This document shows, piece by piece, positions 44,975 through 64,000 of a stretch of 64,000 nt of DNA; position 1 is the stretch's first letter; every line of letters begins with the position of its first letter. Source of the stretch: Brumimicrobium salinarum (GTDB taxonomy: Bacteria > Bacteroidota > Bacteroidia > Flavobacteriales_D > Crocinitomicaceae); assembly GCF_002844555.1 (NCBI RefSeq), contig NZ_PJNI01000008.1, positions 1-64,000 of the forward strand, written 5' to 3'. The notes below the pieces were generated by a model. That model was not told the DNA's origin. It worked only from the letters and a program-made list of their open reading frames with translations, and did no database searches. The position numbers were made by a program, and so were the translations under genes.

Positions 44975-45048
44975 GGTCTGGTAGTTCAGTTGGTTAGAAT
45001 ACCTGCCTGTCACGCAGGGGGTCGCGGGTTCGAGTCCCGTCCAGACCG
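44975..45048 (+). tRNA. tRNA-Asp (GUC)
   Basis: 74-nt cloverleaf: acceptor GGTCTGG / CCAGACC, anticodon arm CCTGTCACGCAGG with GTC, T arm CGGGTTCGAGTCCCG. The discriminator is G, and CCA is not encoded. Followed by a strong terminator and then a tyrosine integrase, so this gene is the probable insertion target of the island. Confidence 0.97.
45020..45048 (+). other. Candidate attL at the tRNA-Asp 3' end
   Basis: Tyrosine integrases often use tRNA 3' ends as attachment sites. The integrase starts 265 bases downstream. I found no second copy of this 3' segment to the right in the window, so the attR site, if any, lies outside. Placement is inference. Confidence 0.35.
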
Positions 45049-45072
45049 CATTGACGAAAGTCAAAACAAATC

Positions 45073-45107: not shown

Positions 45108-45312
45108 CATTAATACCCCTTAACAAAACATTCAATTTTTCACACCCAAGTTGGTTACCTGTTCGGTTACCTCCCACTTATCTTTGAAAAAAGGTAACCG
45201 AATTAAATCGAATTGCTCATTAACAAAGCGATTCAGAGGTATGTTTTATACACTTTTAAAGAGTTTTGATTGCAAATAATAGTATTTGCTGGTTACCAAA
45301 AATTTAAAAAGT

Positions 45313-46569
45313 ATGAAAACGAATCAAACATTTACAATTTTGTTTTGGTTATTCAAAGCCAAAATGCGAAACGAAAAAGCACCTATCTACTGCAGAATTA
45401 CAGTAAACGGAAAAAGAGCACAGTTTTCTCTTAAACGTTCTATAAAACCAGAAAAATGGAATTCATCATCAGGAAAATTAAAAGGAAACTCTGAAGAAGC
45501 ACGAATTCTAAATAGCTACCTCAATAAAGTAAGAAGCGAGTTACATAAACATTTCAATTTGTTAGAAGCAAAAGACGAATTCATTTCTGCCGATACAATT
45601 AAAAACAGCTATTTAGGAATTAACGAAGAAGAGAGAAGCCTAATTGAAACATTTGAATACCATAATAATCAAATGAAAGAGTTAATCGGTATAGATGTCG
45701 TAAAAGCTACACATACAAAATTTGAAACCGTACTCAAAAAACTTAAAATCTTTATGAAGAACCATCATAAACGATCCGATTTAGCATTAAAAGAGCTAAA
45801 TCATAAGTTTGTAGTTGATTTCGAATACTTCTTAAAAGTAGATCAAAAAATCGGTCACAACACCACAATGAAATACATTCGGAACCTCAAGAAAGTAATG
45901 AACATGGCAGTTACCAATGATTGGTTAGCAAAGAATCCATTCGCTAGTTTCAAATGCTCCAATAAGAAAGTACATAGAGAAATCCTCACTGAAGATGAAT
46001 TACAACTATTGACTGAAAAAGAATTTACTATACAACGTCTGGAGGAAGTGCGCGATGTTTTCTTATTTTGTTGTTATACCGGCTACGCCTTTGTTGATGT
46101 TGAAAAGCTAACACCATCCAATTTAGTACGAAACATTAATGGTGAACTTTGGATTTATACCAATCGTCAAAAAACAGGAGCAACTTCAAACGTTCCTTTG
46201 TTAGCTCTAGCATTAAAAATTGTTCAGAAATACAAAGAAAATCCTTATTGCGAAGCGAAAGGAAGATTACTGCCTGTTAAATCCAATCAAAAGATGAATG
46301 CCTACCTCAAGGAAATTGCTGATATATGCGGAATAAAAAAGAAACTAACGATGCATATCGCACGCCATACCTTTGCCACAACAATTACGCTGTCCAATGG
46401 AGTACCCATTGAAACCGTTTCAAAACTATTAGGCCATACTAAACTTGCAACAACTCAAATTTACGCCAAGGTAATGGAGCATAAGGTAAGTGCTGATATG
46501 AGTAGTTTAAATGAAAAGTTGAATTATCAAAGGGAAGGAGAGAAGGATGATCAAACCAAAACCGTTTGA
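45313..46569 (+). CDS. Tyrosine site-specific integrase (IntDOT-like)
   Basis: 418 residues from ATG 45313 (a TTG start at 45286 is also possible). N-terminal arm-type DNA-binding domain (ILFWLFKAKMRNEKAPIYCR), SAM-like core-binding domain (ELNHKFVVDFEYFLK), and catalytic domain. Visible active site: Lys of TNRQKTGATS, His-x2-Arg in MHIARHTFAT (about H348-R351), His in LLGHTKLA and Tyr in TQIYAKV. The first catalytic Arg, normally in a TGLR-type motif, is replaced (CYTGYAFVDV), as in Bacteroidota integrases such as IntDOT. It marks the island's left end. Confidence 0.93.
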   Translation: MKTNQTFTILFWLFKAKMRNEKAPIYCRITVNGKRAQFSLKRSIKPEKWNSSSGKLKGNSEEARILNSYLNKVRSELHKHFNLLEAKDEFISADTIKNSYLGINEEERSLIETFEYHNNQMKELIGIDVVKATHTKFETVLKKLKIFMKNHHKRSDLALKELNHKFVVDFEYFLKVDQKIGHNTTMKYIRNLKKVMNMAVTNDWLAKNPFASFKCSNKKVHREILTEDELQLLTEKEFTIQRLEEVRDVFLFCCYTGYAFVDVEKLTPSNLVRNINGELWIYTNRQKTGATSNVPLLALALKIVQKYKENPYCEAKGRLLPVKSNQKMNAYLKEIADICGIKKKLTMHIARHTFATTITLSNGVPIETVSKLLGHTKLATTQIYAKVMEHKVSADMSSLNEKLNYQREGEKDDQTKTV

Positions 46570-46735: not shown

Positions 46736-47551
46736 ATGAAGAATATCAAAGTAATGATAGGTCAGTTACACACTGATTTAGAGGAATTGGGTTATTCTGA
46801 GCATACGGCTCATATTAACAGTGAAAAAATTCTAAATTGTTTAACAGAAACACTACAAAAAGTACGTTTGTATGTCCTCAAAAATGGATTCTTAACAACT
46901 CGAGATGAAATTCATTTTTTTGAAGATGTAAGGCCCGAATTAGTATCTAGAATTACTTACATAACTTTCGTTATGGAGTATCAGATTGTTAGCCGTTATT
47001 GTGCGGAGGTAAGAGAAAATCTCATTAAAAAAATGACCAATGACTTCACACAGCTAATTAGTGATAATAAAAATCATATTATTCAAATGAATCGGGGCTT
47101 GGAAGAAGATAAACGAAAGTTTTTTATTCGTAAAAATTTTCGACCTCCAATAAATAATTTGGGAAATCTAGTTCGAATGGATTCAGAATTCACTACATAC
47201 CATAGCCTTTTGATTCAAAAAATAAAATCAAATGAATTAATTCATAATTTTTTAAATCAAGTAAAGAAAGAACCCAATACTGCACTTTCAAACTTGAAAT
47301 GGACTGGCAAAAAAGTATCTCTTATTGAACTTATGTATGCTCTTTATTATTCAGGTGTATTTAATAACGGGAAAATGGATATAAAATCTTTAACAAAATC
47401 TTTTGAGCATTTTTTTAACGTAAAGTTAGGCAATGTTTATAGAGCATTCAATGAAATTAAAAACCGTAATGAACCTACAATTTTTTTAGATATATTGAAA
47501 ACATCAATTCAAAATAAAGTCGATGAAGAAGAGGGGTATTATCCCGAATAG
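46736..47551 (+). CDS. RteC-domain protein
   Basis: 271 residues. The C-terminal half carries the RteC signature LKWTGKKVSLIELMYALYYSGVFNNG...IKSLTKSFEHFFNVKLGNVYRAFNEI (quoted in pieces: LKWTGKKVSLIELMYALYYS; FEHFFNVKLGNVYRAF). RteC is the response factor that activates excision genes of CTnDOT-type conjugative elements in Bacteroides, and diverse relatives occur in many Bacteroidota islands. Alone, without rteA/rteB. Likely regulates the adjacent element functions. Confidence 0.85.
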   Translation: MKNIKVMIGQLHTDLEELGYSEHTAHINSEKILNCLTETLQKVRLYVLKNGFLTTRDEIHFFEDVRPELVSRITYITFVMEYQIVSRYCAEVRENLIKKMTNDFTQLISDNKNHIIQMNRGLEEDKRKFFIRKNFRPPINNLGNLVRMDSEFTTYHSLLIQKIKSNELIHNFLNQVKKEPNTALSNLKWTGKKVSLIELMYALYYSGVFNNGKMDIKSLTKSFEHFFNVKLGNVYRAFNEIKNRNEPTIFLDILKTSIQNKVDEEEGYYPE

Positions 47552-49536: not shown

Positions 49537-50466
49537 ATGAAAACATTGAAGCTTAATTCAAAAGGCCAACAAGTAAAACAACTCCAACTCCTCCTCAACA
49601 TCATCCCTGACGGAATCTTCGGTCCACAAACCCAACAATCCGTTATCTTCTTCCAAAAATCACAAAACATAGCCGTAGATGGAATCGTAGGTCCAATAAC
49701 CTGGTCATTACTCTACGACGGTTGGAAAATGATAAACAACCCAAACGATGAAGAATCACTTTACGAACAATACCTACTCCCAAACTACGCATACCATAAC
49801 CAACCAACAGAAAAGAAATCAATATTTCTTCATCACACAGCAGGTTGGCAAAATCCATATCGTGTAATAGATCACTGGGGCGAACGACCACACAAAGTAG
49901 CCACCGAATTTGTCATTGGCGGACAATCCATTCACAACGACAATTCAGATCACGATGGAACAATTCTCAAAGCAATCCCCAATAATGCTTGGGCATGGCA
50001 TTTAGGAATTGGCAACCATCCAGTCCATAGCCAAAGCATTGGCGTAGAACTTTGCAGCTTCGGTAGATTAACAAAAGGCTACTTCAAAAAAGACGAGAAC
50101 AGAAAACCAAAACCAATCGAAAGAGCTAAAAACTCCTACTTCACTTACGTTGGCCAAGAAGTAGATCCCGAACAAGTCGAAGAACTTGTCGAACCTTTCA
50201 AAGGTTTTTCCTATTATCATAAATATTCTGACAACCAGTTGCAGTCGCTTAAAAAACTCCTTCAACACCTTGGCAACAAACACAGCATCGATATTCGCGA
50301 AGGATTACCGAACCTCATCCGAAAGAAAGGAGTTAAAGCATTTGAAGTTGAAAGTAAGAATATGTGTTTGAATTTCCCTGGTATTTGGTCTCACGCCAAT
50401 GTGAATAGTCTGAAGGATGATGTGGCTCCACAGGAGGGGTTAATTGAAATGTTATTGGGGGTGTAA
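49537..50466 (+). CDS. N-acetylmuramoyl-L-alanine amidase with peptidoglycan-binding domain
   Basis: 309 residues: N-terminal PG_binding_1 domain (residues 1-60, LLNIIPDGIFGPQTQQSV and VDGIVGPITWSLL), then an Amidase_2-type zinc amidase (SIFLHHTAGW with His99/His100; WAWHLGIGNHPVHSQSIGVEL). No signal peptide is evident, which fits an endolysin-type or element-encoded hydrolase that needs another exit route. It follows the replication genes on the same strand and ends at a terminator. Confidence 0.88.
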   Translation: MKTLKLNSKGQQVKQLQLLLNIIPDGIFGPQTQQSVIFFQKSQNIAVDGIVGPITWSLLYDGWKMINNPNDEESLYEQYLLPNYAYHNQPTEKKSIFLHHTAGWQNPYRVIDHWGERPHKVATEFVIGGQSIHNDNSDHDGTILKAIPNNAWAWHLGIGNHPVHSQSIGVELCSFGRLTKGYFKKDENRKPKPIERAKNSYFTYVGQEVDPEQVEELVEPFKGFSYYHKYSDNQLQSLKKLLQHLGNKHSIDIREGLPNLIRKKGVKAFEVESKNMCLNFPGIWSHANVNSLKDDVAPQEGLIEMLLGV

Positions 50467-50641: not shown

Positions 50642-51886
50642 ATGGCGAACGATTTATTTAAAAAGGCAAAAAGACTTATAGAAATTCAAGAGAACAAAAA
50701 AGGTCAATGTTTTGTGTATGGTTGTAGAAATAAAACTATTCAATACCATCCTACACTAGAATCCAAAATTATTAAAGGATTATATGAAAAGGACAAGGAG
50801 AATAAGGAAACTGTATTCTATTTGAAAGATAACCCAAAATATACTCCTGAATTGTTGACAAAGAAATCATTGGAAAATATAGAGCCTAAGAGAAAGTTGG
50901 TGAGCAGAAATATTGAAAAATCTTCTCTTTTGATTGGATTTTGTAAGCGGCACAACTACGAGATTTCTAATAAGCTAAATAATGCGTCATACAAAAACGA
51001 GAATAAAATAAATTTTCTTCATGCCTTTAGTGCTTATGCAAGCTATACATCTAAATCGAAAAAACAAATCTCTTTAGGATGTACTGAAATGTTAGATGTT
51101 TTAGAAAATAAAGAAGAACAAATGACACCTTGGAAGGAGTCACTTTTACCAATGGTTCAAAAGGTGTTAGATGATATACCAGATGACTTTTTTATAGGTT
51201 TTGGGACGATGGAACCATTAACCGAAGTCTTAGATCAAGTTGTTGAAGCAATTGAAGAAACAGAGTTCAGTGTAGCTATAACTCACATACAAGAACAAAT
51301 CAATGATAAAAAATTGTATCCAATGACAGCAACAGATTTTAAGACCAAAATAAAGCTTTTAGTTCATTCTATTTGTTTAAGTGATAAGTGTCCCGTTACC
51401 CATTCAAAATATGATTTAGATTTCTTTATGATGATGTTTGAAGGGGTAAAAAAAATGGAGAGTAAGGTGAATTTAATGTGGTTATGCAATAAATATGATG
51501 AAATGACTTATGTTTCTCGATCTATAAAAGGGATTTATGGGATAGTTGGTAGCTTTGTTTACAAATTAAGCGACGAACAGTTAGTAACTTTGTCAATATT
51601 TCCTGAATATGAAAAAGGGAGGACCCAAGTTTTACAATCCAGTCTCAAAGACAACGGTGTAGATTTTAAAAAAATAAAAGAAATGGATGAGTATGAATAC
51701 CGTCAACTCATTTCTGTAATCATAGCAGATAGTGGATCTAATATCTTTATGAGCCCAAGTTTCTTCTATAATCTGGAAACAGATATCCAATCTAGATTTC
51801 TGGATAAGGAAGGTGATGGAAAGCGTATAAATATTTTTACAGAAAACACAGAGTTAGAAGATAAAGATCAAATTATTCTCAATTGA
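50642..51886 (+). CDS. Unknown protein with Cys/His zinc-finger-like N-terminus
   Basis: 414 residues from ATG 50642 (a TTG at 50609 would add 11). The N-terminal region has C23-x4-C28...H36 (CFVYGCRNKTIQYH) and C101-x2-H104 (GFCKRH), a spacing like zinc-ribbon/HNH-like proteins of the type 'C..C...H...FC..HD' often seen in defence islands. The middle and C-terminal parts are helical and lack known motifs. It lies just before hsdR on the same strand, with a 262-base gap. I know of no function. A defence role is inferred from place only. Confidence 0.6.
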   Translation: MANDLFKKAKRLIEIQENKKGQCFVYGCRNKTIQYHPTLESKIIKGLYEKDKENKETVFYLKDNPKYTPELLTKKSLENIEPKRKLVSRNIEKSSLLIGFCKRHNYEISNKLNNASYKNENKINFLHAFSAYASYTSKSKKQISLGCTEMLDVLENKEEQMTPWKESLLPMVQKVLDDIPDDFFIGFGTMEPLTEVLDQVVEAIEETEFSVAITHIQEQINDKKLYPMTATDFKTKIKLLVHSICLSDKCPVTHSKYDLDFFMMMFEGVKKMESKVNLMWLCNKYDEMTYVSRSIKGIYGIVGSFVYKLSDEQLVTLSIFPEYEKGRTQVLQSSLKDNGVDFKKIKEMDEYEYRQLISVIIADSGSNIFMSPSFFYNLETDIQSRFLDKEGDGKRINIFTENTELEDKDQIILN

Positions 51887-52148
51887 CAAAAGCTGTAAAT
51901 TATTTAAAAAAAAAAACTAGCACCATTAAGTCGTTTCTGTTTGATACAGAGATATGTATTTGAGTATGCCGAAGTTTGCCTCCTTGCCGCTGAGAGGTTA
52001 TATCTAGCAACAAAGTGCCCTCATTTCACCAAATTTCCTATCTTTAGCCACAATACAAACCAAAAGACATTAATTGGTATTTACAACCTATTAAAAAAGC
52101 CCATTCATTAACACTTTAACACTGCGGCTTGAAACTAAGTAAAGGAGT

Positions 52149-54596
52149 ATGAATAAAAAAGACCTCTCAGAATCAGATATAAAAGCAAAGTTCATTACAC
52201 CAGGGATATTAAAAGCTGGTTGGGATGAACATACACAAATTGGTCGTGAAATTTATTTTACTGATGGAAGAATCTATGTAAAAGGAAAAATGACCCGAAG
52301 AGGTAAACGAAAGTTTGCTGATTATATTCTGTTTTATAAACCCAACGTTCCTATTGCAATTATTGAAGCTAAAAGCAACTCACACAGCATTCGAAGTGGA
52401 ATTCAACAAGCTTTGGGTTATGCAGAAACACTTGATATTCCTTTTGTATTTAGTAGTAATGGAGACGGATTCTATTTTCACGATAAAACAGTAACGGACG
52501 GTGAAATTGAAAAAGAAATATCATTGGATGAATTTCCATCACCAGCTGAACTTTGGGAGAAATACAAAAAGTTTAAAGGAATAAAAACGGAAGAGCAAGA
52601 AAGAATTGTTTCTGAGGATTATTTTTCTGACAACTCTGGAAGAACGCCAAGGTACTACCAACAAATAGCCGTAAATAGAACTGTTGAAGCTGTGGCCAAA
52701 GGTCAGCAACGTATGATTTTGGTGATGGCTACGGGAACAGGTAAAACCTACACAGCTTTTCAAATTGCCCACCGTTTGTTTAAGTCAAAAGCGAAAAGAA
52801 AGATTCTTTTCTTAGCTGACAGAACCGCTTTGGTTGACCAAACTTTAAGGGGTGACTTTAGGCATTTTAAAGATGCAATGACTGTCATTAAAAAGAAGGT
52901 CGTTAATGTGGATGGTAAAGACACCTTGGTTTCCAACAATAAAAGAGGAATAGATTCTGCCGATAAAGCTTTTGATGTTTTCTTAGGGTTATATCAAGGG
53001 TTAAGTAATGCAGAACCTGGAGTACCAGATGCTTTTAAAGATTTTACCAAAGACTTTTTTGATTTAATTATCATTGATGAGTGTCACAGAGGTAGTGCCA
53101 AGGAAGATAGTAAATGGCGAGAAATATTGAAATACTTTGATTCTGCTACTCATATCGGATTAACCGCCACGCCTAAAGAAACAGAAGAAATTTCCAATCA
53201 AGATTATTTTGGGGAACCAATTTATACCTATTCCTTAAAACAAGGAATTGATGATGGTTTCTTGGCACCATACAAAGTAGTGAAAGTCACCTTAGATGTT
53301 GATGCAGAAGGTTGGCGACCTCCAAGTGGTTATCTCGACAAGAATGGAGAACCTGTTGAAGATAGAATTTACAACCGAACTGATTTTGACCGCAATATTG
53401 TAGTTGAAGAACGACGGAAAATCGTAGCAAAAAAAATCACTGAATTCCTTAAAGGATACAATCGATTTGCAAAGACAATTGTTTTCTGTATTGATATTGA
53501 ACACGCTGAAGGAATGAGAACAGCCTTGATTAATGAAAATCCTGATTTGTTTAGTGAAAACAATAAGTACATCATGCAAATCACTGGAGATAACGCCGAG
53601 GGGAAAAGAGAATTAGACAATTTCATTTCGCCTAGTGAAAAATATCCTGTTATAGCTACAACTTCTAAATTGATGACTACGGGTGTTGATGCGCAAACCT
53701 GTAAACTCATTGTTTTAGACAGTAACATTGGTTCGCCAACAGAGTTTAAACAAATTATAGGGAGAGGAACACGATTAAACGAAGAATACGATAAAACGTA
53801 TTTTACCATCATGGATTTTAGAAATGCGACGGACCATTTCGCAGATCCTAATTTCGATGGAGTTCCTGAAATGATTAAAGAGGCAAATCAAGAGGAAGAT
53901 CTTTCAGGCGCTGATGACATTGAACCTGATGAGCCGATAGTTGATGATTTAGATGACAATAACGAAATCGATTTTGATGAGCCTGAAGGGTATCCAGAAG
54001 TAGAAGGCGGTGGAGGTGTAGTAGAAGATCCACGAGAAAAAACCTATGTAGATGGTGTAGAAGTCACTATAATGGGTGAGAGTGTTCAATATTTAGATGA
54101 ATCTGGAAAATTGATCATCGAATCTTTTATTGACTATACCAAGAAAAGTGTGAACGAGCAATACCGAACTTTAGATGATTTTTTGAGCCGATGGAACAGT
54201 GAAGAAAAGAAAAGTGTTATCGTTAAAGAATTGGAAGAGCAAGGAATATTCTTTGAAGAATTAAAGAAAAAAGTAGGAAAAGAATTTGATCCTTTTGATT
54301 TGATATGTCACGTAGCGTTTGATGCAAAGCCTTTAACGCGAAAAGAAAGGGCAGATAATGTAGTAAAACGAAACTACTTTACTAAATATGGAAAGCAAGC
54401 TCAAGAAGTAATCAAAAAACTACTTGAAAAATATGCTAAAGACGGAATAGTAACCATAGAAAGTACGGAAGTTTTAAGATTAGACCCATTAAATGAATTA
54501 GGAACACCAGTCGAGTTAATTAAATCTTTTGGTGGGAAAGTAAAGTATCTTGAAGCTTTAAAAGAGTTAGAAAACGAATTATATAAATTAGCTTAA
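52149..54596 (+). CDS. hsdR: Type I restriction enzyme, R subunit
   Basis: Motor and nuclease subunit. 815 residues with an N-terminal PD-(D/E)XK site (Asp58 ... Glu73-Ala-Lys75, ADYILFYK/IIEAKSN), an SF2 helicase with Walker A MATGTGKTYTAF (about residue 193), DECHRGS (about 309) and GLTATPKE. The C-terminal EcoEI-type helical region includes DPFDLICHVAFD. Length and motifs match EcoEI/HsdR-like enzymes. First gene of the RM block, with a gap of only 2 bases to the next gene. Confidence 0.95.
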   Translation: MNKKDLSESDIKAKFITPGILKAGWDEHTQIGREIYFTDGRIYVKGKMTRRGKRKFADYILFYKPNVPIAIIEAKSNSHSIRSGIQQALGYAETLDIPFVFSSNGDGFYFHDKTVTDGEIEKEISLDEFPSPAELWEKYKKFKGIKTEEQERIVSEDYFSDNSGRTPRYYQQIAVNRTVEAVAKGQQRMILVMATGTGKTYTAFQIAHRLFKSKAKRKILFLADRTALVDQTLRGDFRHFKDAMTVIKKKVVNVDGKDTLVSNNKRGIDSADKAFDVFLGLYQGLSNAEPGVPDAFKDFTKDFFDLIIIDECHRGSAKEDSKWREILKYFDSATHIGLTATPKETEEISNQDYFGEPIYTYSLKQGIDDGFLAPYKVVKVTLDVDAEGWRPPSGYLDKNGEPVEDRIYNRTDFDRNIVVEERRKIVAKKITEFLKGYNRFAKTIVFCIDIEHAEGMRTALINENPDLFSENNKYIMQITGDNAEGKRELDNFISPSEKYPVIATTSKLMTTGVDAQTCKLIVLDSNIGSPTEFKQIIGRGTRLNEEYDKTYFTIMDFRNATDHFADPNFDGVPEMIKEANQEEDLSGADDIEPDEPIVDDLDDNNEIDFDEPEGYPEVEGGGGVVEDPREKTYVDGVEVTIMGESVQYLDESGKLIIESFIDYTKKSVNEQYRTLDDFLSRWNSEEKKSVIVKELEEQGIFFEELKKKVGKEFDPFDLICHVAFDAKPLTRKERADNVVKRNYFTKYGKQAQEVIKKLLEKYAKDGIVTIESTEVLRLDPLNELGTPVELIKSFGGKVKYLEALKELENELYKLA

Positions 54597-54598
54597 TT

Positions 54599-55219
54599 AT
54601 GAATATTTATTTAAATGAATTATGCTGTGCTTTTAAAGATGTTGATGAGAAATATTATTCAACACAAGCTTTTTCAGGAAACTGGAGAGAGCTTGAGCCA
54701 GAAAAAAGAAAAAAATATTTTCAGCATATTGAAAGGAATTTCGCATATGAATTATATCACCAGTGGAAAATTATCAGAACTAATAGTGTTTTAGAAAATG
54801 GGAAAGATGAGTTAACATTAAACGCCGAGATAGGTAAAAATGGAATAAAGCATAAATTCGTGTCAAATACAGTATATCCTGACTTAGTTTTGCATCAGGG
54901 ACAAATGGAAACTGAAATGCATAAACAAATTATTTTTGTTGAAATAAAAACTGATCCTAGTATAGATAAGAAAAAGCTAAAAAAAGATTTGTGTAAATTA
55001 GAAATGGCTGTAGGAGAATCATTAAACTATCAGAATGCAGTATTTGTAAGTATAAATTCTGATTATAATAAATTAATTAATAACATTTATAATATTATTA
55101 ATGATTTTAGTGAAGCTTCTTGTAATAAAATCAACCTACTAACAAAGAGGGGTAATGAGGTGATTTTTGTAAGTTTTGAAAGTATTAAACAACAAAATTC
55201 ACTAACTAAAGAATCTTGA
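54599..55219 (+). CDS. Predicted PD-(D/E)XK protein embedded in the RM operon
   Basis: 206 residues. A plausible nuclease active site is visible: Pro94-Asp95 (VYPDLVLHQ) followed by Glu115-x-Lys117 (FVEIKTD). The N-terminal helical region (ERNFAYELYHQW) could supply the further Glu. No membrane segment. Starts 2 bases after hsdR and ends 55 bases before hsdM. It is not a normal part of type I RM operons. A role as accessory nuclease or fidelity factor is inference only. Confidence 0.65.
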   Translation: MNIYLNELCCAFKDVDEKYYSTQAFSGNWRELEPEKRKKYFQHIERNFAYELYHQWKIIRTNSVLENGKDELTLNAEIGKNGIKHKFVSNTVYPDLVLHQGQMETEMHKQIIFVEIKTDPSIDKKKLKKDLCKLEMAVGESLNYQNAVFVSINSDYNKLINNIYNIINDFSEASCNKINLLTKRGNEVIFVSFESIKQQNSLTKES

Positions 55220-55274
55220 CTGATCATCAATTACTTACCGAATGAAAATCGACTATTAACATTAATAATACAAA

Positions 55275-56711
55275 ATGACAAACGTATCCGCTGTAGTTAG
55301 CAGCATAAGAAATATAATGCGACAAGACAGAGGAATCTCTGGAGACGCGCAACGATTAGAGCAACTCGGTTGGATGTTGTTCTTGAAAATTATAGATGAT
55401 AAAGACCAAGAATTTGAAATTATTAAAGACGATTATGTTTCAGTAATCCCTGAAAAATTTCAATGGCGAACCTGGGCAGCAGATGCCGAAGGAATTACGG
55501 GTGATGAATTGTTGGAATTTATTGACAGCAATGCCGAAGGAAACAGAGGTTTGTTTGCAACGTTGAGAAATCTAAGCAGCAATACCAATCCAAAAAGAGC
55601 AGCGATTGTAAAGGAAGTTTTTGAAGGTTCTAACAACTTTATGAAGTCGGGATATGAGATGCGTAAAGTGATCAATAAACTGAATGAAATTGACTTTAAT
55701 AACTCAAAAGATAAACAAGTATTTGGTGATATTTATGAAAGCATTTTAGTTGAATTACGTGATGCTGGAAATAAAGGAGAATATTATACCCCTAGAGCAG
55801 TTACGCAGTTGATGACCCAAATGACGGATCCTCAATTAGGAGATAAAGTACTCGATCCTGCAGCTGGAACGGGTGGTTTCCTCACAGAAGCCATTGAACA
55901 CGTAAGAGAGAACTATGTGAATACCGTAAAAGATGAACACATTCTTCAAAAAAGTATTTCTGGATGGGAATTAAAACCCGTGGCTTATGTTCTCGGATTA
56001 ACCAATTTAATTCTTCACGATATTGACATTCCCGAATACCTGTATAAAGACAGTTTGAAAGTAGAATACAACGCCATAAAAGCAAAAGACAAAGTAGATG
56101 TCATTTTGGCCAATCCTCCTTTTGGTGCCAGCATTGCCGACGGTGTAGAAACCAACTTTCCGTCTAGTTACAGATGCAAGGAATCTGCGGATTTATTCGT
56201 CATTTTAATGTTGCAACTTTTAAAACACGATGGACGCTGTGCCATTGTTTTACCTGATGGTTCCATTACAGGTGATGGTGTAAAAGCACGTATCAGAGAG
56301 AAACTACTTACCGATGCCAATTTACACACCATTATTCGTTTGCCGCAATCTACATTTTTCCCCGCAACGGTAAGCACCAATCTTTTGTTCTTTGAAAAAG
56401 GTGAAAAAACAAAAGATATTTGGTACTACGAACATCAATTGCCAGCAGGTCAAAAGTCTTACTCTAAAACAAAACCTGTTCAATTTAAAGAGTTTCAGCC
56501 AATTGTTGATTGGTGGAATAACAGAAAAGAATCTGATGTGGCTTGGAAAGTGAATGTGAAGGATTTGAAAAATTGGGATTTGGATATAAAGAATCCGGTT
56601 GTGGAGGAGGAAGAGAAGATGATGACGACATCCGAAGCTCTTGAGAAATTAAATAATTCAATAAATACGAGTCGGGAATTAGTAAAAGACTTGACAAAAT
56701 ATTTAAGATAA
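55275..56711 (+). CDS. hsdM: Type I restriction enzyme, M subunit (N6-adenine methyltransferase)
   Basis: 478 residues. N-terminal HsdM helical domain (IRNIMRQDRGISGDAQRLEQLGWMLFLKI), SAM-binding LDPAAGTGGFLTEAI and the catalytic NPPF motif (LANPPFGAS). Methylates adenine in the site chosen by HsdS. The stop is 2 bases before the hsdS start. Confidence 0.96.
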   Translation: MTNVSAVVSSIRNIMRQDRGISGDAQRLEQLGWMLFLKIIDDKDQEFEIIKDDYVSVIPEKFQWRTWAADAEGITGDELLEFIDSNAEGNRGLFATLRNLSSNTNPKRAAIVKEVFEGSNNFMKSGYEMRKVINKLNEIDFNNSKDKQVFGDIYESILVELRDAGNKGEYYTPRAVTQLMTQMTDPQLGDKVLDPAAGTGGFLTEAIEHVRENYVNTVKDEHILQKSISGWELKPVAYVLGLTNLILHDIDIPEYLYKDSLKVEYNAIKAKDKVDVILANPPFGASIADGVETNFPSSYRCKESADLFVILMLQLLKHDGRCAIVLPDGSITGDGVKARIREKLLTDANLHTIIRLPQSTFFPATVSTNLLFFEKGEKTKDIWYYEHQLPAGQKSYSKTKPVQFKEFQPIVDWWNNRKESDVAWKVNVKDLKNWDLDIKNPVVEEEEKMMTTSEALEKLNNSINTSRELVKDLTKYLR

Positions 56712-56713
56712 TT

Positions 56714-58084
56714 ATGGGTAAAGAATTTAGAATCAAAGATTTTTTAATACGAATTAAGGATCAAATTATCATCGAGGATGATACTACTTATAAGAGAGTA
56801 ACTGTATCAGGAAATCATAAAGGAGTAAAGTTAAGAGATGAAGTTATTGGAGCATTAATAGGAACAAAAAAACAATTTGTGATTAAGGCTAAAGATTTTA
56901 TTTTATCTAAGATCGATGCTAGAAATGGTGCTTTTGGTATTATCCCTGATGAATTAGATGGAGCAATTATTACCGGAAATTTTTGGACTTATTCAGTGGA
57001 TACTGACTTGATAGACACAGAATGGTTTTTTTACTTTACGCACTCATATAATTTTATTCAAATTTGCATTGAATCAAGTACAGGTTCAACACATAGGAAA
57101 TATCTAGATGAAAAAGTGTTTTTAAATCATAAGATTTTTGTTCCCGAAATTAAAGAGCAAAAACAAATGGTTAAGAGGTATAAAAGTAGTTCGAAAATAT
57201 CTAAAAAATTGTCTTTAGAAATTTCTTCACAAAAAGAATACCTATTCCAACTCAAGCAATCCATTTTACAAGAAGCAATTCAAGGAAAACTCACAGAAGA
57301 ATGGCGAACTGCTCGACAGGCTCAAGAGTCACCATTGGAAGAGGCAAGTGAGTTACTCAAACGGATAAAAGCTGAGAAAGCCCAACTCGTCAAAGAGAAG
57401 AAAATTAGAAAAGAAAAAGCTTTGCCGCCTATATCAGATGAGGAAATTCCTTTTGATTTGCCAGAGGGGTGGGTTTGGACAAAGTTAGGTGATATATGTA
57501 CTAAAACTGGTTCAGGAAGTACGCCAAGAGGTGGGAAATCAGCCTACATAGAAGCTGGAATACCGTTCATTAGATCCCAAAATGTTTATGATGGCGGTTT
57601 AAGATTAAGTGGTGTTGCATATATCCCAATGGCCACACATAAAAAAATGAAAGGAACAAAAGTTCAAGCTGAAGATTTATTACTCAATATTACAGGAGGT
57701 TCTATAGGTAGATGTTGTATTGTACCAAAAGATTTCAAAACAGGAAATATAAATCAGCATGTTGCTATTATTAGAACCTTAATAAAAAGCAATGGATACT
57801 TTATTCACAAGGTTGTTTGCTCTCCCTATTTTCAAAATATGATTTATGAAGCACAAACTGGAGCTGGAAGAGAAGGATTACCAAAGAATAAAATGGATAA
57901 TATACTAATTGCATTACCGCCACTGGAAGAACAACAAGAAATCGTAAAAAAGGTAGAGGTTTTAATGGAGCATTGCGAGGAATTAGAAAAAGAAGTAGCA
58001 GAAAGTGAAGCCAATGCACAGATGTTGATGCAGGCGGTTTTGAAGGAGGCTTTTGAAGGGGAGATTAAAAAGGAAATGGTATGA
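56714..58084 (+). CDS. hsdS: Type I restriction enzyme, S (specificity) subunit
   Basis: 456 residues with two target-recognition domains. TRD1 starts almost at the N-terminus (FILSKIDARNGAFGIIPDEL) and ends near residue 180. A helical spacer (QKEYLFQLKQSILQEAIQGKLTEEW) follows. TRD2 starts at LPEGWVWTKLGDICTKTGSG and ends with PPLEEQQEIVKKVEVLMEHCEELE. The recognised DNA sequence cannot be read from the protein alone. Confidence 0.95.
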   Translation: MGKEFRIKDFLIRIKDQIIIEDDTTYKRVTVSGNHKGVKLRDEVIGALIGTKKQFVIKAKDFILSKIDARNGAFGIIPDELDGAIITGNFWTYSVDTDLIDTEWFFYFTHSYNFIQICIESSTGSTHRKYLDEKVFLNHKIFVPEIKEQKQMVKRYKSSSKISKKLSLEISSQKEYLFQLKQSILQEAIQGKLTEEWRTARQAQESPLEEASELLKRIKAEKAQLVKEKKIRKEKALPPISDEEIPFDLPEGWVWTKLGDICTKTGSGSTPRGGKSAYIEAGIPFIRSQNVYDGGLRLSGVAYIPMATHKKMKGTKVQAEDLLLNITGGSIGRCCIVPKDFKTGNINQHVAIIRTLIKSNGYFIHKVVCSPYFQNMIYEAQTGAGREGLPKNKMDNILIALPPLEEQQEIVKKVEVLMEHCEELEKEVAESEANAQMLMQAVLKEAFEGEIKKEMV

Positions 58085-58120
58085 GTGATTGTTATAAACA
58101 TATCTTAAGTTAATTTTAAA

Positions 58121-58735
58121 ATGGGAGATTCACCACATATATTGAAAAGGGGTTCTTTGTTTGCAATGTTCTGTCTATCCTATTTGCCTTTGTTTTTATT
58201 GCTTGCAATTAAGATTTTATTTGAAAAATTTAATCGTTTCAAATTTGTTGAAATCAGCTTAGACTCAATAAAATTATTTATATCTGAATTTGGCTTTTTA
58301 GCTTTACTTACTTTCTTGACTGTTTATGCTATAGTTGGAACGAAATTAACTTTTAAGAATATTTCTAAGAAAAAAAGGAATGCTTTTCCTGTAAAAGTCA
58401 CATCTATTAGACCCAAAAATGAAGAATCATTATCTTATTTGGCAACATACGTTATTCCTTTAATGATTCAGGGAAACATTGATACATATAATTACATTGT
58501 TTTTTCGATTCTATTTTTTATTTACTACAAGTTATATTCAACTTCTAGTTTAATATTGATTAATCCAATACTAAACATGAAATATGGTTTGTTTGAACTA
58601 GATTATATACATTGCTCTAATAACAAAGTAAAGAGAAACGCCTTAATCATATCAAGTCAAAAATGGATTGAGGAAGAGGAGGAGTTAAAACTTTTAAAAT
58701 TAAGCCATCGGTTATATTATGCCTATAAAAACTAG
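58121..58735 (+). CDS. KwaA-like four-helix membrane protein (Kiwa defence)
   Basis: 204 residues with four hydrophobic segments: about residues 13-34 (LFAMFCLSYLPLFLLLAIKI), 52-76 (FGFLALLTFLTVYAIVG), 105-120 (YLATYVIPLMIQ), 123-147 (YIVFSILFFIYYKLYSTSSL). A conserved INPIL follows. Size and topology match KwaA, the membrane sensor of the Kiwa anti-phage system. The call rests mainly on the following DUF4868/KwaB-like gene. 36-base gap to hsdS, 17 bases to the next gene. Confidence 0.7.
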   Translation: MGDSPHILKRGSLFAMFCLSYLPLFLLLAIKILFEKFNRFKFVEISLDSIKLFISEFGFLALLTFLTVYAIVGTKLTFKNISKKKRNAFPVKVTSIRPKNEESLSYLATYVIPLMIQGNIDTYNYIVFSILFFIYYKLYSTSSLILINPILNMKYGLFELDYIHCSNNKVKRNALIISSQKWIEEEEELKLLKLSHRLYYAYKN

Positions 58736-58752
58736 AAAACTAAAGATATAAA

Positions 58753-59781
58753 ATGGAAGCGACAGATTTGTTAGAAGAACTAAATGAATATACAGAAAGT
58801 GAAACAATTCACATGTATATTATTGAAAGAAAGAAAAAAGCAGGTGTTAAAACAAAAGCAAAACCATCTGAAAAATTTGAATATGTACCTTTACAAGTAG
58901 ATTTAAGTGAGGAATTAGCTCCAAGTATCCAGGACATGCTCAAAAAAGTGATCAATAAAAAGGTGCGCGATGACATTGAAATAAAAGAATATCAGGTAAT
59001 AGATGATACAGAAGATAAGATTCAGACTTACAAGGATCTCGGAAAGATAACAGGTTTTAAAGAATTTTTGAATTCAAGATTAGGAGGAGAGATTAAAGCT
59101 CTAAAGTCCTTTGAAAAATTAGCTGAATTAGAAAAGGCATGGGCTATCTGCTATGGCTTTTACAGTTCTGAAAAACAGGATTGGTTGTACTGTATTAAGA
59201 AACTGGCGCCTAGAAATATGGCAGTAGATCAATCTTTATCAAAAAATCTCAAAGGTGCTATGAAAAACTCAATTAATTCAGTTTTTGATACCACAACTAG
59301 CACTCTAAAACCAATGAACGGTTTCTCTATCAATATCGAACCTAGTATTGATATGATTTATTTTGATCAAAATATTTATATATTCAACAAAAAAGGCTTT
59401 GAAGATATAACAAGCCTAACTGAGGAATTCATAGAATTGAGTAAGGAGTTGGTTGAAGAGGTTAATGATATAAATTTCGTAAATGGAATAGAGCACATTT
59501 CGTCTGTTATATTAAGTAAGCCATCATTTAGAAATAAACTTATCAAGGCTAAAGATATTGGGAATATCGATTTTTTAAAAACCTGTAAGAACTTCAAATT
59601 GGAGTTCAATCGAGCAGGAAAGAAATTGAAAATTAAATTCTCTTACGATGTTGATGGGAAGATAAATGCTAAGGACGAAGAAGAAGCTAAAAACATTATC
59701 CAAGTTATAAGCGAGTTTTACAAAGAAGGGATTTTTGGAGGTAAAGTTTTCGAAACCGCAGCTGGGAGGTTGAAAAAATAG
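58753..59781 (+). CDS. KwaB-like DUF4868 protein (Kiwa defence)
   Basis: 342 residues. The DUF4868 core is recognised in KPMNGFSINIEPSIDMIYFDQNIYIFNKKGFEDI (quoted as IDMIYFDQNIYIFNKKGFED) and the later KLKIKFSYDVDGKI region. DUF4868 is the KwaB component of Kiwa, a DNA-binding effector that acts with membrane KwaA. Length is close to that of E. coli KwaB. It follows the KwaA-like gene by 17 bases, which supports the assignment. Confidence 0.78.
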   Translation: MEATDLLEELNEYTESETIHMYIIERKKKAGVKTKAKPSEKFEYVPLQVDLSEELAPSIQDMLKKVINKKVRDDIEIKEYQVIDDTEDKIQTYKDLGKITGFKEFLNSRLGGEIKALKSFEKLAELEKAWAICYGFYSSEKQDWLYCIKKLAPRNMAVDQSLSKNLKGAMKNSINSVFDTTTSTLKPMNGFSINIEPSIDMIYFDQNIYIFNKKGFEDITSLTEEFIELSKELVEEVNDINFVNGIEHISSVILSKPSFRNKLIKAKDIGNIDFLKTCKNFKLEFNRAGKKLKIKFSYDVDGKINAKDEEEAKNIIQVISEFYKEGIFGGKVFETAAGRLKK

Positions 59782-59814
59782 ATTTTTTAAGTAGGGAATT
59801 AATATAGAAATGGT

Positions 59815-60993
59815 ATGACGGACATAAATCAAACGAAGCTAGCCACATTACTTAATGATACAGGGTCGATTGTAAAAGAACACCGAAAAAATATAAGAGA
59901 AAAAGGCGAAGATTTTAATATCTTTTCTGTATTGAAAATGGAAGAGGATGAAACCAAAACACATTCAGGAATGATTGTGGCGTTGTTAGATCCTAATGGG
60001 AATCATTATCACGGCCAAAGATTTTTAGAATTGTTTCTTAAAGAAATCGGTTATGAATATGAGGATGAAAACCTAATTTTGGTAAAAGTTAAAGCTGAAC
60101 ATAATTTGGGGAAAATTCCAGAAGATTATTTAAGTGGAGGCTCCATTGATATTTTAATCAACTTTCCTTCAGGAAAAGCAATAGCTATAGAAAATAAAAT
60201 TAAGGCTGGCGATCAGAAAAACCAGATGTATAGGTATAGTTTGTATAAAGGAGCAGACAGTAGATTATATTATCTAAATCTTTATGGTGAAAAACCAACA
60301 AAGAAAAGTCTTTATAAATTATCAGACAAAGATTATGATATCATTACTTATAAAACTCATGTCTTAAATTGGTTGGAGAATTGTTTGTTAATAGTAAAGC
60401 CTGGTTCAATAGTTGAAAATGCAATAAAACAATACAGAATTTTAATAAAAAATCTAACTCATACAATGGATAATAACCTAGAAGTTAAGCTAAATAAGCT
60501 AATTGAAAACAATCTAAAAGAAGCAAAATATATTCACTCACACTTCCGAAAAGCTGTTTCTAACATTAGAGAAAAACTTAGAATTGCAGTTTGTGAAGAA
60601 ATAAATAATAGGAAGTTAGATGTGACTGCACGTCCAGGGAACGATACTTCTCATGTTTACTCACAGATTTGGTTGAACTCTGAAAAGCTTCATGTTAAGG
60701 ATCTACAATTTGGTTTAGAGTCATTCTCGGGAAAAGGACATAATCATGGACGTATTTTTATAGGTGTATTTGATAGAGAAAAGGAAAAGGAGTATGAAAT
60801 TCTAAGTGATGGCGATTATAGATTGAATTCTTCTTGGCCTTTAATTAGAGATATAAAAACACCATGCGATAATCATTTGAATTTGTCCAGTATAAAAACG
60901 CTTGAGAAATTGTTAGATGATGCTGATTATTTTAATGAGATGGTCGATGAGGTTGTAAACCAAGTTAAGGATTTTGTTGAGTTATATCATTAG
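59815..60993 (+). CDS. PDDEXK_4-type nuclease-like protein
   Basis: 392 residues. N-terminal EDETKTHSGMIVALLDPNG, then Asp112 (GSIDILINF), Glu126-Asn-Lys128 (IAIENKIKAGD) and Gln/Tyr residues (DQKNQMYRYS) match the PD-(D/E)XK motif set of the PDDEXK_4 family. 33 bases after the kwaB-like gene and on the same strand, so probably in the same transcript. It could be a third part of the Kiwa unit or a separate nuclease. I know of no standard three-gene Kiwa. Confidence 0.75.
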   Translation: MTDINQTKLATLLNDTGSIVKEHRKNIREKGEDFNIFSVLKMEEDETKTHSGMIVALLDPNGNHYHGQRFLELFLKEIGYEYEDENLILVKVKAEHNLGKIPEDYLSGGSIDILINFPSGKAIAIENKIKAGDQKNQMYRYSLYKGADSRLYYLNLYGEKPTKKSLYKLSDKDYDIITYKTHVLNWLENCLLIVKPGSIVENAIKQYRILIKNLTHTMDNNLEVKLNKLIENNLKEAKYIHSHFRKAVSNIREKLRIAVCEEINNRKLDVTARPGNDTSHVYSQIWLNSEKLHVKDLQFGLESFSGKGHNHGRIFIGVFDREKEKEYEILSDGDYRLNSSWPLIRDIKTPCDNHLNLSSIKTLEKLLDDADYFNEMVDEVVNQVKDFVELYH

Positions 60994-61132: not shown

Positions 61133-61651
61133 TTAAATTTGTTTTTTATCTTCAATTAAATCTAAAAGTTTTTTCGCTTCAGATATTATTTTAGAATGTT
61201 CTTTTATGAGATCAAATGAAATTACATCATTTTTATGTTTTAATTGAACAATAAACCTTCCATTTATTAACATATATGCTCCTCCATGAAAATGACTGTC
61301 AGTGATTTTAATTTGATTTATTTCTTCATTTTTTCTTGGATTATCAAAGGCTCTATGTGCTGTTAATTTATGTCTTAGTGGGATAAACCTTAGTATTTCT
61401 GGCATTTCAATTTCATAAGAGATTCCTAAATCTGTAACACTATCGCTTTTGGCATAAAAATAAAACTGTCCCATTCTATTTAAATAAGCAGTAAGCTCAT
61501 GTCTCATAGAGTTAATCGTGATCCAATTTTGACTTCTAGCTTGATCAGTGTATTTATCTTTTACTATAGGATTTAAACTTTGATGAAGTCTATAATAGTT
61601 GTTAAAATGGTAAACCAACCCCTCAATAATTGTCCTTTCGTTATAATGCAT
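61133..61651 (-). CDS. Hypothetical protein, possible HEPN-like
   Basis: 172 residues. Contains Arg93-x5-His99 (RHKLTAHRA) within a helical region, consistent with the R-x4-6-H motif of HEPN RNases, and a second R-H (SMRHELTAYLN). It is not enough to be sure. Starts 17 bases after the PIN gene stop, so it may be co-transcribed with the PIN and XRE-ImmA genes. Confidence 0.45.
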   Translation of the reverse strand: MHYNERTIIEGLVYHFNNYYRLHQSLNPIVKDKYTDQARSQNWITINSMRHELTAYLNRMGQFYFYAKSDSVTDLGISYEIEMPEILRFIPLRHKLTAHRAFDNPRKNEEINQIKITDSHFHGGAYMLINGRFIVQLKHKNDVISFDLIKEHSKIISEAKKLLDLIEDKKQI

Positions 61652-61667
61652 TTTGTCTTTACTTTTA

Positions 61668-62180
61668 TTAGTTATCCTCCCAATCCATCAACCTTCCCTC
61701 AAATTCCTTCATCAACTTAGAATTATTCTGATACATCACATTTTGCTGAATCAGCTCCTTTAACTTTTCAGAAGCTTCTTTTTTACTTAAAATACCTTGT
61801 TCTATCAATTGGTCAAAAATCCATAGCATTCCATGGTATTCTATAGCTACTTTCTTGGCGTGATTGCGAATAACTTTGTCGCTGCTCAAAACGATTGCTT
61901 CATGTTTTTTGGCAAGGAATAATACGGTTTTGTCAACTTCGGATAAGGCACGAGGGTAATTCGTATTCATTATTTCAATTCTTTCAGCAGAAGCTATGGT
62001 GTGGATTGTTAGCTTCCCAACACTCACAAAAGCATCGAGCACGTTTCTCTGTTCTGGATATAACTCGTTGAGTACATCTAATGAAGTGTATAATTCTAAA
62101 TCAATAGAAAAGAAAGATACGGTTAAATTTAGGTCGTGCAAATCAATAAAGATACACGCATCGGTAATGGCTATCTTCAT
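61668..62180 (-). CDS. PIN-domain protein (predicted toxin RNase)
   Basis: 170 residues with the PIN acidic set: Asp7 (ITDACIFIDL), Glu39 (VLNELYPE), Asp83 (EVDKTVLFLA), Asp101 (SSDKVIRNHA). PIN domains of this group cleave RNA as toxins, and here the partner would be the upstream XRE-ImmA protein, 6 bases away. Fits the COG2856-PIN toxin-antitoxin type predicted from gene neighbourhoods. Confidence 0.8.
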   Translation of the reverse strand: MKIAITDACIFIDLHDLNLTVSFFSIDLELYTSLDVLNELYPEQRNVLDAFVSVGKLTIHTIASAERIEIMNTNYPRALSEVDKTVLFLAKKHEAIVLSSDKVIRNHAKKVAIEYHGMLWIFDQLIEQGILSKKEASEKLKELIQQNVMYQNNSKLMKEFEGRLMDWEDN

Positions 62181-62186
62181 AGATTC

Positions 62187-63245
62187 TTATATCATTTTAG
62201 TGTTTGCTTTAAATGCTGCAAGCGTCATGTTTTTAAGTGCTGCCGCTTTGCTCATGGAAATCAATTCTTCCACAACGGCTCTGTATATTAATTGGTCAAA
62301 ACGCCCCGATTCTTCGTGTCCATGATATTCAAAAGGCTCATCAACCCTCCAATTATTATCATCCATCATTTTAAAGAATTGTCGTGTATAATTATTATTT
62401 ACAATTTTGCAAACATTAGCCCGCATCACAATAGCTTGCATGGATATTCCGTATTGCTTCTTGATATTGCCCAATTCATTCATAGATAATTGCTTTCTGT
62501 GTTCACCCAATTCTTGTTTAATTGCAGCCTCGGGCAATAACATTGCTCCCGCAAACTGATGACACAAAGTTTCAATTTGTTTATGGGTTAGGCTCTCATT
62601 AAAGTCTAACAGTAAATGTCCCAATTCATGCAATAAGGTAAACCTCAATCGGTCTTTTTTATTATCCATTTGGGTTTCATTGTAGGCAATTACAGGAATA
62701 TTTCCATTGGCATAAGTTTGTAAACCATCAAAATTGCCATCAGCTTTAATTTTTAAAACTTTAATGTGTTTATCCTCTAGTAGTTCAGCGATGTTGGGCA
62801 TGGCATTATTACCAAGTTTCCATTCTTTACGCAGAGAATTAGCCGCATGATTTACATTGGCATAACCAGAAACTGCTGGATAATCTTCCAATGGGTTTAC
62901 AAAATTATTTTTTATCCCTAAAATTTCTTCTATTTCAAGATAGCGAGAAAGATAGTCCTTGGTTTGCTCTTGAATTCTGGTTTCTTCTTTTGCAGGTATT
63001 TTTAGTTTACGATATTCCACTTTTCCAATCTCTACGGTCATAGGATTAAAAAAGAAATCTGGTCGTACATTAAATATTTTACTGAATTCAGCAATCATTT
63101 CACTATCAGGAATTACTTCACCTTTTTCATAGCGATAAATAGCTTGCCTAGTGATTTTATTATTGAGTTTGTCAACAACGTCCTGTAAAGATAGTCCACT
63201 TAACAATCGAGCTGATTTAAATCTTTCCGCGAAAATAGTATTCAT
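62187..63245 (-). CDS. XRE-family / ImmA-IrrE metallopeptidase regulator
   Basis: 352 residues. N-terminal HTH_3 domain (LSLQDVVDKLNNKITRQAIYRYEKGEVIPD), and in the middle the M78 peptidase motif HExGH: His206-Glu207-x2-His210 (LLHELGHLLLDF), followed by HQFAGAMLLPE. Such proteins combine an operator-binding domain with a protease that can clear repressors. Paired with the PIN gene (6-base gap). Upstream are TTTGTAAA sites that suit autoregulation. Confidence 0.88.
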   Translation of the reverse strand: MNTIFAERFKSARLLSGLSLQDVVDKLNNKITRQAIYRYEKGEVIPDSEMIAEFSKIFNVRPDFFFNPMTVEIGKVEYRKLKIPAKEETRIQEQTKDYLSRYLEIEEILGIKNNFVNPLEDYPAVSGYANVNHAANSLRKEWKLGNNAMPNIAELLEDKHIKVLKIKADGNFDGLQTYANGNIPVIAYNETQMDNKKDRLRFTLLHELGHLLLDFNESLTHKQIETLCHQFAGAMLLPEAAIKQELGEHRKQLSMNELGNIKKQYGISMQAIVMRANVCKIVNNNYTRQFFKMMDDNNWRVDEPFEYHGHEESGRFDQLIYRAVVEELISMSKAAALKNMTLAAFKANTKMI

Positions 63246-63928: not shown

Positions 63929-64000
63929 ATGAAGCACGATTACTTTAAATATTATAATTCAAAAACTTTACTAACTCTTATTGTATTGATATTATCCCCA
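63929..64000 (+). CDS. Start of a secreted or membrane protein (3' partial)
   Basis: 24 residues visible: MKHDYFKYYNSKTLLTLIVLILSP, here seen as a charged start followed by a hydrophobic run (TLLTLIVLIL), a signal peptide or anchor. The rest lies outside the window, so it cannot be named. Confidence 0.5.
   Translation, partial: MKHDYFKYYNSKTLLTLIVLILSP

Follow-up and report, generated by a model that had tools for sequence, protein, structure and literature searches.

A type I restriction-modification operon of Brumimicrobium salinarum with a divergent Kiwa pair and a probable PDDEXK_4 nuclease gene

Complete defence systems have been described inside type I restriction-modification (RM) operons. 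DarTG2 lies within the type I RM operon of enteropathogenic E. coli (the RRDM island), between hsdS and hsdR (PMC12255303), and TgvAB is embedded in the type I RM cluster of V. cholerae VPI-2 and is active on phages with modified DNA (PMC11411939). Here, we describe a 64,000-nt stretch of Brumimicrobium salinarum DNA (contig NZ_PJNI01000008.1, positions 1 to 64,000; the window), in which an hsdR-hsdM-hsdS operon also carries a gene for a 206-aa PD-(D/E)XK-like protein, the kwaA-kwaB pair of the Kiwa system and S26, a gene of the PDDEXK_4 nuclease superfamily. It is likely that separate defence modules have piled up here in a single type I RM operon, on an element integrated in tRNA-Asp, and that they are not the parts of one new machine.

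Kiwa has been reported to sense infection at the membrane, to bind injected DNA and to block replication and late transcription with no cutting (PMC12904381); it has otherwise been described as acting through RecBCD-dependent interference (PMC11514479) or DNA degradation (PMC12322248). In Streptococcus thermophilus, Kiwa occurs in a defence island that also holds R/M systems, which is a case of proximity, not of embedding (PMC11514479). The PDC systems derive from 'guilt-by-embedding' (PADLOC-DB v2.0.0; PMC10855318); for PDC-S26, to which S26 was assigned, our literature search found no published account of the function.

Composition of the gene run

Seven genes, from hsdR to S26, form one co-directional run at positions 52149-60993 of the + strand. 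They are listed below, followed by the open reading frame (ORF) lying upstream.

52149..54596, + strand: hsdR, EcoAI-family type I restriction subunit by profile, 815 aa (PDB 3h1t, 2.8e-149)
54599..55219, + strand: guest 1, 206-aa PD-(D/E)XK-like protein in the hsdR/hsdM junction (motif read by eye; PD-Lambda-3_A)
55275..56711, + strand: hsdM, type I N6-adenine methyltransferase (N6_Mtase 2.9e-65; PADLOC MTase_I 2.1e-181)
56714..58084, + strand: hsdS, type I specificity subunit with two Methylase_S stretches (PF01420 7.4e-22)
58121..58735, + strand: kwaA, Kiwa membrane protein, 204 aa (PADLOC PDLC00212 2.1e-50; PDB KwaA 9o0i/9mrg, E about 0.003)
58753..59781, + strand: kwaB, DUF4868 Kiwa effector, 342 aa (PADLOC PDLC00223 3.1e-60; PF16162 45.7 bits, cut-off 26.3)
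59815..60993, + strand: S26, PDDEXK_4 nuclease-superfamily gene, 392 aa, PADLOC candidate PDC-S26 (PF14281 7.4e-28; PDLC04974 4e-146)
50642..51886, + strand: ORF1, Cys/His protein of no family, probably outside the unit

The intergenic gaps from hsdR to S26 are, in order, 2, 55, 2, 36, 17 and 33 nt, and the guest defence genes thus lie within a tight co-directional run with hsdR, hsdM and hsdS. By profiles, the RM core is a type I system of the EcoAI family: HsdR passed the NF046051 equivalog cut-off (1137.8 vs 550 bits), and the adjacent HsdM (N6_Mtase) and HsdS (Methylase_S) both scored above their family cut-offs.

KwaA adjoins KwaB (DUF4868), and both were matched by family profiles (PADLOC for the two proteins, Pfam above the cut-off for KwaB). 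The pair is a divergent Kiwa, the name being used in the wide PADLOC/Pfam sense; we call it divergent because both proteins fell below the NCBIfam equivalog cut-offs, KwaA reaching 61.4 of 100 bits and KwaB 20.9 of 200 bits. The window KwaA resembled the solved KwaA weakly, and the solved KwaB was matched by a profile of other KwaB proteins (7.8e-9) but not by the window KwaB alone. S26 matched the PDC-S26 profile over nearly its whole length and has PD-(D/E)XK residues; D112, E126, K128, Q134 and Q137 were invariant in 12 aligned copies, the window's included. Its product is a probable nuclease.

The GC contents of the RM genes (hsdR.355, hsdM.374, hsdS.338) differ from those of the guests (.267 for the 206-aa gene;.270,.317 and.309 for kwaA, kwaB and S26), which agrees weakly with guest status of the latter.

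All eight ORFs of the original prediction, made from the letters of the window, were found where it had placed them on the + strand, and its assignments of hsdR, hsdM, hsdS, the KwaA-like protein, the KwaB-like DUF4868 protein and the PDDEXK_4-type protein were borne out by profile matches (NF046051, N6_Mtase, Methylase_S, PADLOC and Pfam). Its single run of eight genes on one strand holds for the seven from hsdR to S26, with their gaps of 2-55 nt, and not for the Cys/His ORF1. This ORF was rejected as a member of the unit and is probably separate from the run, because it ends 262 nt upstream of hsdR, matched no family in family-profile searches (only Csm2 at E 0.02-0.08) and had no relative in plasmids or in viral contigs. 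The ORF1 structure model (pLDDT 30) was too poor for use.

Possible traces of guest entry

A repeat at the edges of Kiwa points to the order in which the genes may have come together.

58051..58084, + strand: copy 1 of the 34-nt repeat (repeat family D1), the 3' end of hsdS including its stop codon
59785..59818, + strand: copy 2, after kwaB, a putative decayed copy of the hsdS 3' end that runs through the ATGA start of S26

The two copies are identical at 25 of 34 positions, the last 12 nt being exact, and copy 2 starts 4 nt past the stop codon of kwaB. In a scan of 2,648 combinations of an ORF end with an ORF start in the window, allowing shifts of up to 15 nt and leaving out pairs closer than 80 nt, the hsdS end and the S26 start were the sole pair to reach 25/34. 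When no shifts were allowed, two of 2,668 pairs reached this value, the same one and a trivially identical stop/start overlap of adjoining ORFs at 38463-38466. An exact 12-mer common to two random 36-nt windows arose in 26 of 20,000 trials.

Probably, hsdS and S26 once adjoined, the stop codon of one overlapping the start codon of the other, and Kiwa came in between them later; the copied hsdS end has since decayed. This history is the simplest, because the repeat flanks Kiwa and because hsdS and S26 are direct neighbours in two other operons (L037 and L040). The repeat could also be the relic of a second, truncated hsdS between Kiwa and S26, with no duplication on Kiwa entry, which would be the main rival to the insertion history. 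Extra hsdS copies are known in type I loci, copy 2 matches the hsdS 3' end, and another locus in which Kiwa and type I genes adjoin (L074) does contain a second, short hsdS-like ORF; against this, no more hsdS sequence precedes copy 2, with its start only 4 nt past kwaB, and we regard the relic as possible and rather doubtful.

The second junction that attracted attention was that between hsdR and hsdM. HsdR was matched at E 1e-60 or better in 43/395 class genomes, the window's included, and 37 stretches were fetched of 49 places outside the window; only runs ordered hsdR, hsdM, hsdS were counted, giving 19 (the window, L162 and 17 others). The junction was filled in 8/19. The occupants of the seven other filled junctions were GmrSD_N, DUF4268, Abi_2, PDDEXK_3, a protein with a weak Y1_Tnp match, Mrr_cat and one uncharacterised family common to L214 and L222. 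In guest-free relatives, the spacing of hsdR and hsdM was -4 to 8 nt in six of the nine junctions printed. The rlo/mlo genes of Campylobacter type I loci, too, are accessory genes that vary on the hsdR and hsdM sides; they belong to gene families different from those of the window.

The 206-aa gene is best seen as the occupant of a variable guest slot and not as a fixed subunit, because this junction holds so many different occupants in relatives. The gene itself is present as originally proposed; its PD-(D/E)XK label rests on a PD...EIK motif read by eye, a weak PADLOC match (PD-Lambda-3_A, E 0.0014) and a model of low confidence (pLDDT 43.8) with the core order H-E-E-E-H-E-H-E. A fold search with this model returned no match at E 0.001, the top rows being acetyl-CoA carboxylase chains. 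A phmmer search of the fetched stretches around Kiwa, Shedu, S26 and HsdR found no homologues, nor were any found in plasmids, and at the edges of the gene no insertion trace was detected (best 18/34). The proposal that the two accessory nuclease-like genes hold fixed positions did not survive the comparison: positions vary across genomes and the junction occupants differ.

Neighbourhoods of Kiwa, S26 and Shedu in other genomes

KwaB was found in 6/395 phylum genomes (the window's included), 2 plasmid records and 37 loci of a genome-contig collection, as well as in 11/395 class genomes (the window's included), where KwaA stood beside it in 7 of the 10 others; three class matches that had no KwaA and KwaB by profiles (L167-L169) were left out. 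L030, L033 and L034 repeat L055, L079 and L080, as checked by shared sequence, and L066 and L067 nearly duplicate L065, with the same kwaB and about 96% agreement across 11 kb. With these five removed, the Kiwa set comprised 46 loci besides the window; most of it was gathered by a motif-based scan, and one part of the family is over-represented. A single-protein scan of genome contigs gave no KwaB relatives, and six KwaB loci in viral contigs stood outside the 46-locus comparison. Genes were assigned to the same run if co-directional with gaps of up to 300 nt, and the RM profiles were built partly from Kiwa neighbours.

An RM gene shared the run with Kiwa in 19/46 loci (18/39 plus 1/7), among them three weak cases: L049 with a short hsdM-like ORF, L060 with an hsdM-like ORF four genes off and L069 with a short type IIG-like ORF. 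In L079, an Eco57I-type methylase ORF (1129 aa) that overlaps the kwaA start was missed by the gene caller and is not in this count; its addition gives 20/46. In the remaining 27/46 loci, L079 included, no RM gene was found in the run, some of these stretches ending at contig edges.

Type I genes accompanied Kiwa in L029, L031, L074 and L162, each of which has Kiwa immediately after hsdS or hsdM. L162 reads hsdR-hsdM-hsdS-kwaA-kwaB and L031 hsdM-hsdS-kwaA-kwaB; in L074 Kiwa is flanked by hsdS and hsdR, and L029, the Hymenobacter plasmid NZ_CP141189.1, has it after hsdM. C5 methylases (type II) were present in 10/46 runs and type III genes in two; the type III methylase and endonuclease genes lie downstream of kwaB, adjoining it in L050 and separated from it by one gene in L047. 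In representative loci, the Pfam names of the RM partners were C5 DNA_methylase, EcoRII, NgoFVII-like and type III methylase and endonuclease.

Kiwa was observed at or near the end of C5-methylase runs in L048, L052, L054, L064, L065, L068, L071, L073, L076 and L080. EcoRII belongs to the run of L071 and an NgoFVII-like enzyme to that of L064, and L068 and L073 have a gene assigned to the DUF2357-PDDEXK_7 cluster between the C5-methylase run and Kiwa.

S26 was found in 16/395 phylum genomes, the window's included. RM genes were in its run in two of 17 other stretches, L037 and L040, where S26 directly follows hsdS. Within the fetched stretches, Kiwa occurred in 0/17 of the other S26 neighbourhoods and S26 in 1/46 of the other Kiwa loci, the Hymenobacter plasmid, in divergent orientation. 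S26 was present in 15 of 72,556 plasmid records, one of which is this plasmid with type I RM and Kiwa, and in no viral contigs. Of five further plasmid regions inspected, four (L172, L173, L175 and L176) have a WYL-domain gene next to S26 or nearby.

The original prediction suggested that RM and Kiwa in one run may be a functional unit and not chance, and proposed a count of DUF4868 neighbourhoods. The pairing indeed recurs, with type I genes in four other Kiwa loci; the count for the PDDEXK_4 gene stops at one of 46, and a fixed composite unit was rejected on the neighbourhood counts (for S26 and Kiwa on each side) and on the variable junction. A true functional unit would mean that HsdRMS, KwaA-KwaB and S26 cooperate on the same DNA, e.g., with Kiwa tethering injected DNA at the membrane for cutting by HsdR or S26. 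Such a unit would be in keeping with the recurrence of type I RM, Kiwa and S26 together, in different order, on the Hymenobacter plasmid as a second genome (where the start of S26 lies on the opposite strand, about 1.6 kb upstream of hsdR, and the gene appears to cross the start of the record), with the many branches of the KwaB tree on which Kiwa has RM genes and with the excess of C5 methylases over Shedu given below. We hold cooperation to be quite improbable in view of the 45 Kiwa loci that lack S26 and the 17 S26 stretches that lack Kiwa within the DNA fetched, the 27 loci with no RM gene in the run and the spread of Kiwa's RM partners over types I, II and III.

Shedu (PF14082), found in 27/395 genomes, was taken as a control; 29 of its 32 places were examined, drawn from another genome sample than the Kiwa set. 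Its run held RM genes in 8/29, seven of them type I, and in L116, L120, L127 and L129 Shedu was observed inside type I operons among hsdM, hsdS and hsdR. Since type I runs include Shedu no less often than Kiwa, type I operons seem to accept guests generally, and type I RM as a special partner of Kiwa was not supported against this control. An enrichment of Kiwa with C5 methylases is suggestive only, 10/46 vs 0/29 (p 0.0055), several tests having been made on samples drawn differently and with a C5 profile seeded from Kiwa neighbours.

The similar rate of RM neighbours of Shedu would also suit mere crowding, in which the genes are neighbours since elements gather defence genes, with no meaning at the level of the operon, and so would the CBASS-type cyclase/E2 and RmrA-type genes on the same element. 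Crowding is unlikely in our view: the seven genes all read in one direction and lie 2-55 nt apart, Kiwa comes immediately after hsdS or hsdM in five loci dispersed over the KwaB tree, and two other operons have S26 as the first gene behind hsdS.

On the KwaB tree (45/47 rows), five label changes are required to account for the five type I rows, and well-supported branches make at least four of these unavoidable; for the ten type II rows, eight are required. One might suppose that Kiwa in Bacteroidota preferentially partners RM systems of types I, II and III, with repeated gains, because it needs or exploits RM, for instance by holding unmodified DNA at the membrane, S26 being a further cutter here; we consider this a long shot.

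The reading of stacked modules draws on the gene order, the tight gaps, the pairings of RM with Kiwa and with S26 elsewhere, the variability of the junction and the repeat at the Kiwa edges, all taken from the sequence itself. A number of results weigh against it. Kiwa was not with RM more often than Shedu, overall (19/46 vs 8/29, p 0.32; with L079 20/46, p 0.22) or for type I under a loose rule (6/46 vs 7/29, p 0.23) or a strict one (4/46 vs 6/29, p 0.17). The type I labels scatter on the KwaB tree no more than shuffled labels do, the label changes could reflect losses or gains alike, and single placements are unsure given the long KwaB branches of the window and L029. L031, L074 and L162, the three loci covered by the repeat scan, have no equally strong repeat (best 21, 16 and 18 of 34), and the second-hsdS relic would deprive the repeat of its meaning for Kiwa entry. 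The GC differences between RM genes and guests are modest, and promoter-like sites were no commoner than in shuffles in the promoter scan. Counts from the promoter and terminator scans were at or below chance, RNA folds of the two outer gaps were no better than those of shuffles, and the Bacteroidota -7 motif with a -33 TTG gave no match.

Under the stacking that we favour, the accessory slots of hsdR-hsdM-hsdS would collect modules: the junction would have received a PD-(D/E)XK-like gene, the place behind hsdS would have gone to S26, and Kiwa would have come in between hsdS and S26. The genes would be co-transcribed from ahead of hsdR, would move together and would provide protection in layers. 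Unmodified DNA would be cut by type I RM; Kiwa, sitting at the membrane, would bind phage DNA as it enters and, without cutting it, block replication and late transcription; and S26 would act as an additional nuclease. Phages that evade restriction may be dealt with by the guests, much as TgvAB acts on phages with modified DNA, and the modules are more likely to act in parallel than to form a single complex. The repeat offers a readable trace of how such stacks may build, a guest entering between hsdS and an older guest, and the scattered, apparently repeated pairing of Kiwa with RM, chiefly in C5-methylase runs, makes mutual help vs joint travel a testable question.

The host element and comparison with known systems

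Upstream of the run lie a tRNA gene and two genes of the element that carries it.

44975..45049, + strand: tRNA-Asp, likely insertion site of the element
45286..46569, + strand: tyrosine integrase of the element (PF00589, PF13102, PF17293)
46736..47551, + strand: RteC element regulator (PF09357 1.7e-40)

The 20 bases at 45033-45052, i.e., the last 17 of tRNA-Asp and three beyond, recur exactly at contig position 80983. Because the integrase and RteC follow tRNA-Asp and these bases recur, the run is placed on a likely integrative element of about 36 kb in tRNA-Asp (contig 45033-81002), with the exact 20-bp repeat as its ends.

Other genes were noticed on the element. A three-gene unit on the minus strand (61133-63245) encodes an RmrA-type protein (PADLOC 1.2e-45), a PDC-S70-like protein (2.7e-05) and a 172-aa protein with no PADLOC match. 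CBASS-type cyclase (5.1e-111) and E2 (5.8e-61) genes lie at contig 63929-66253, of which 63929-64000 falls within the window, preceded by a 205-aa ORF that may be a candidate effector. An endolysin-like amidase with peptidoglycan-binding domains is encoded at 49537-50466.

Searched by title and the start of the abstract, with subscription literature mostly outside the search, the literature yielded no report of Kiwa inside RM operons. The combination of RM, Kiwa and S26 thus appears new, no report of it having been found; guests in type I operons are already known from DarTG2 and TgvAB.

The locus resembles DarTG2 of the RRDM island in that a complete second defence system lies within a type I RM operon. 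The guest there is a toxin-antitoxin pair and a repressor gene heads the island, whereas the window has Kiwa and S26 in the order R-x-M-S-Kiwa-S26. With TgvAB, it shares a two-gene guest inside a type I RM operon; the V. cholerae guest differs in being a GmrSD-like type IV restriction pair, and a GmrSD_N protein fills the hsdR/hsdM slot in a relative of our operon (L207). As in known Kiwa systems, KwaA and KwaB are adjacent, full length and in the same order; the window pair differs in its distance from them, below the equivalog cut-offs, and in sitting in an RM operon. With this locus, Kiwa and an uncharacterised PDDEXK_4 gene join the defence systems found inside type I RM operons.

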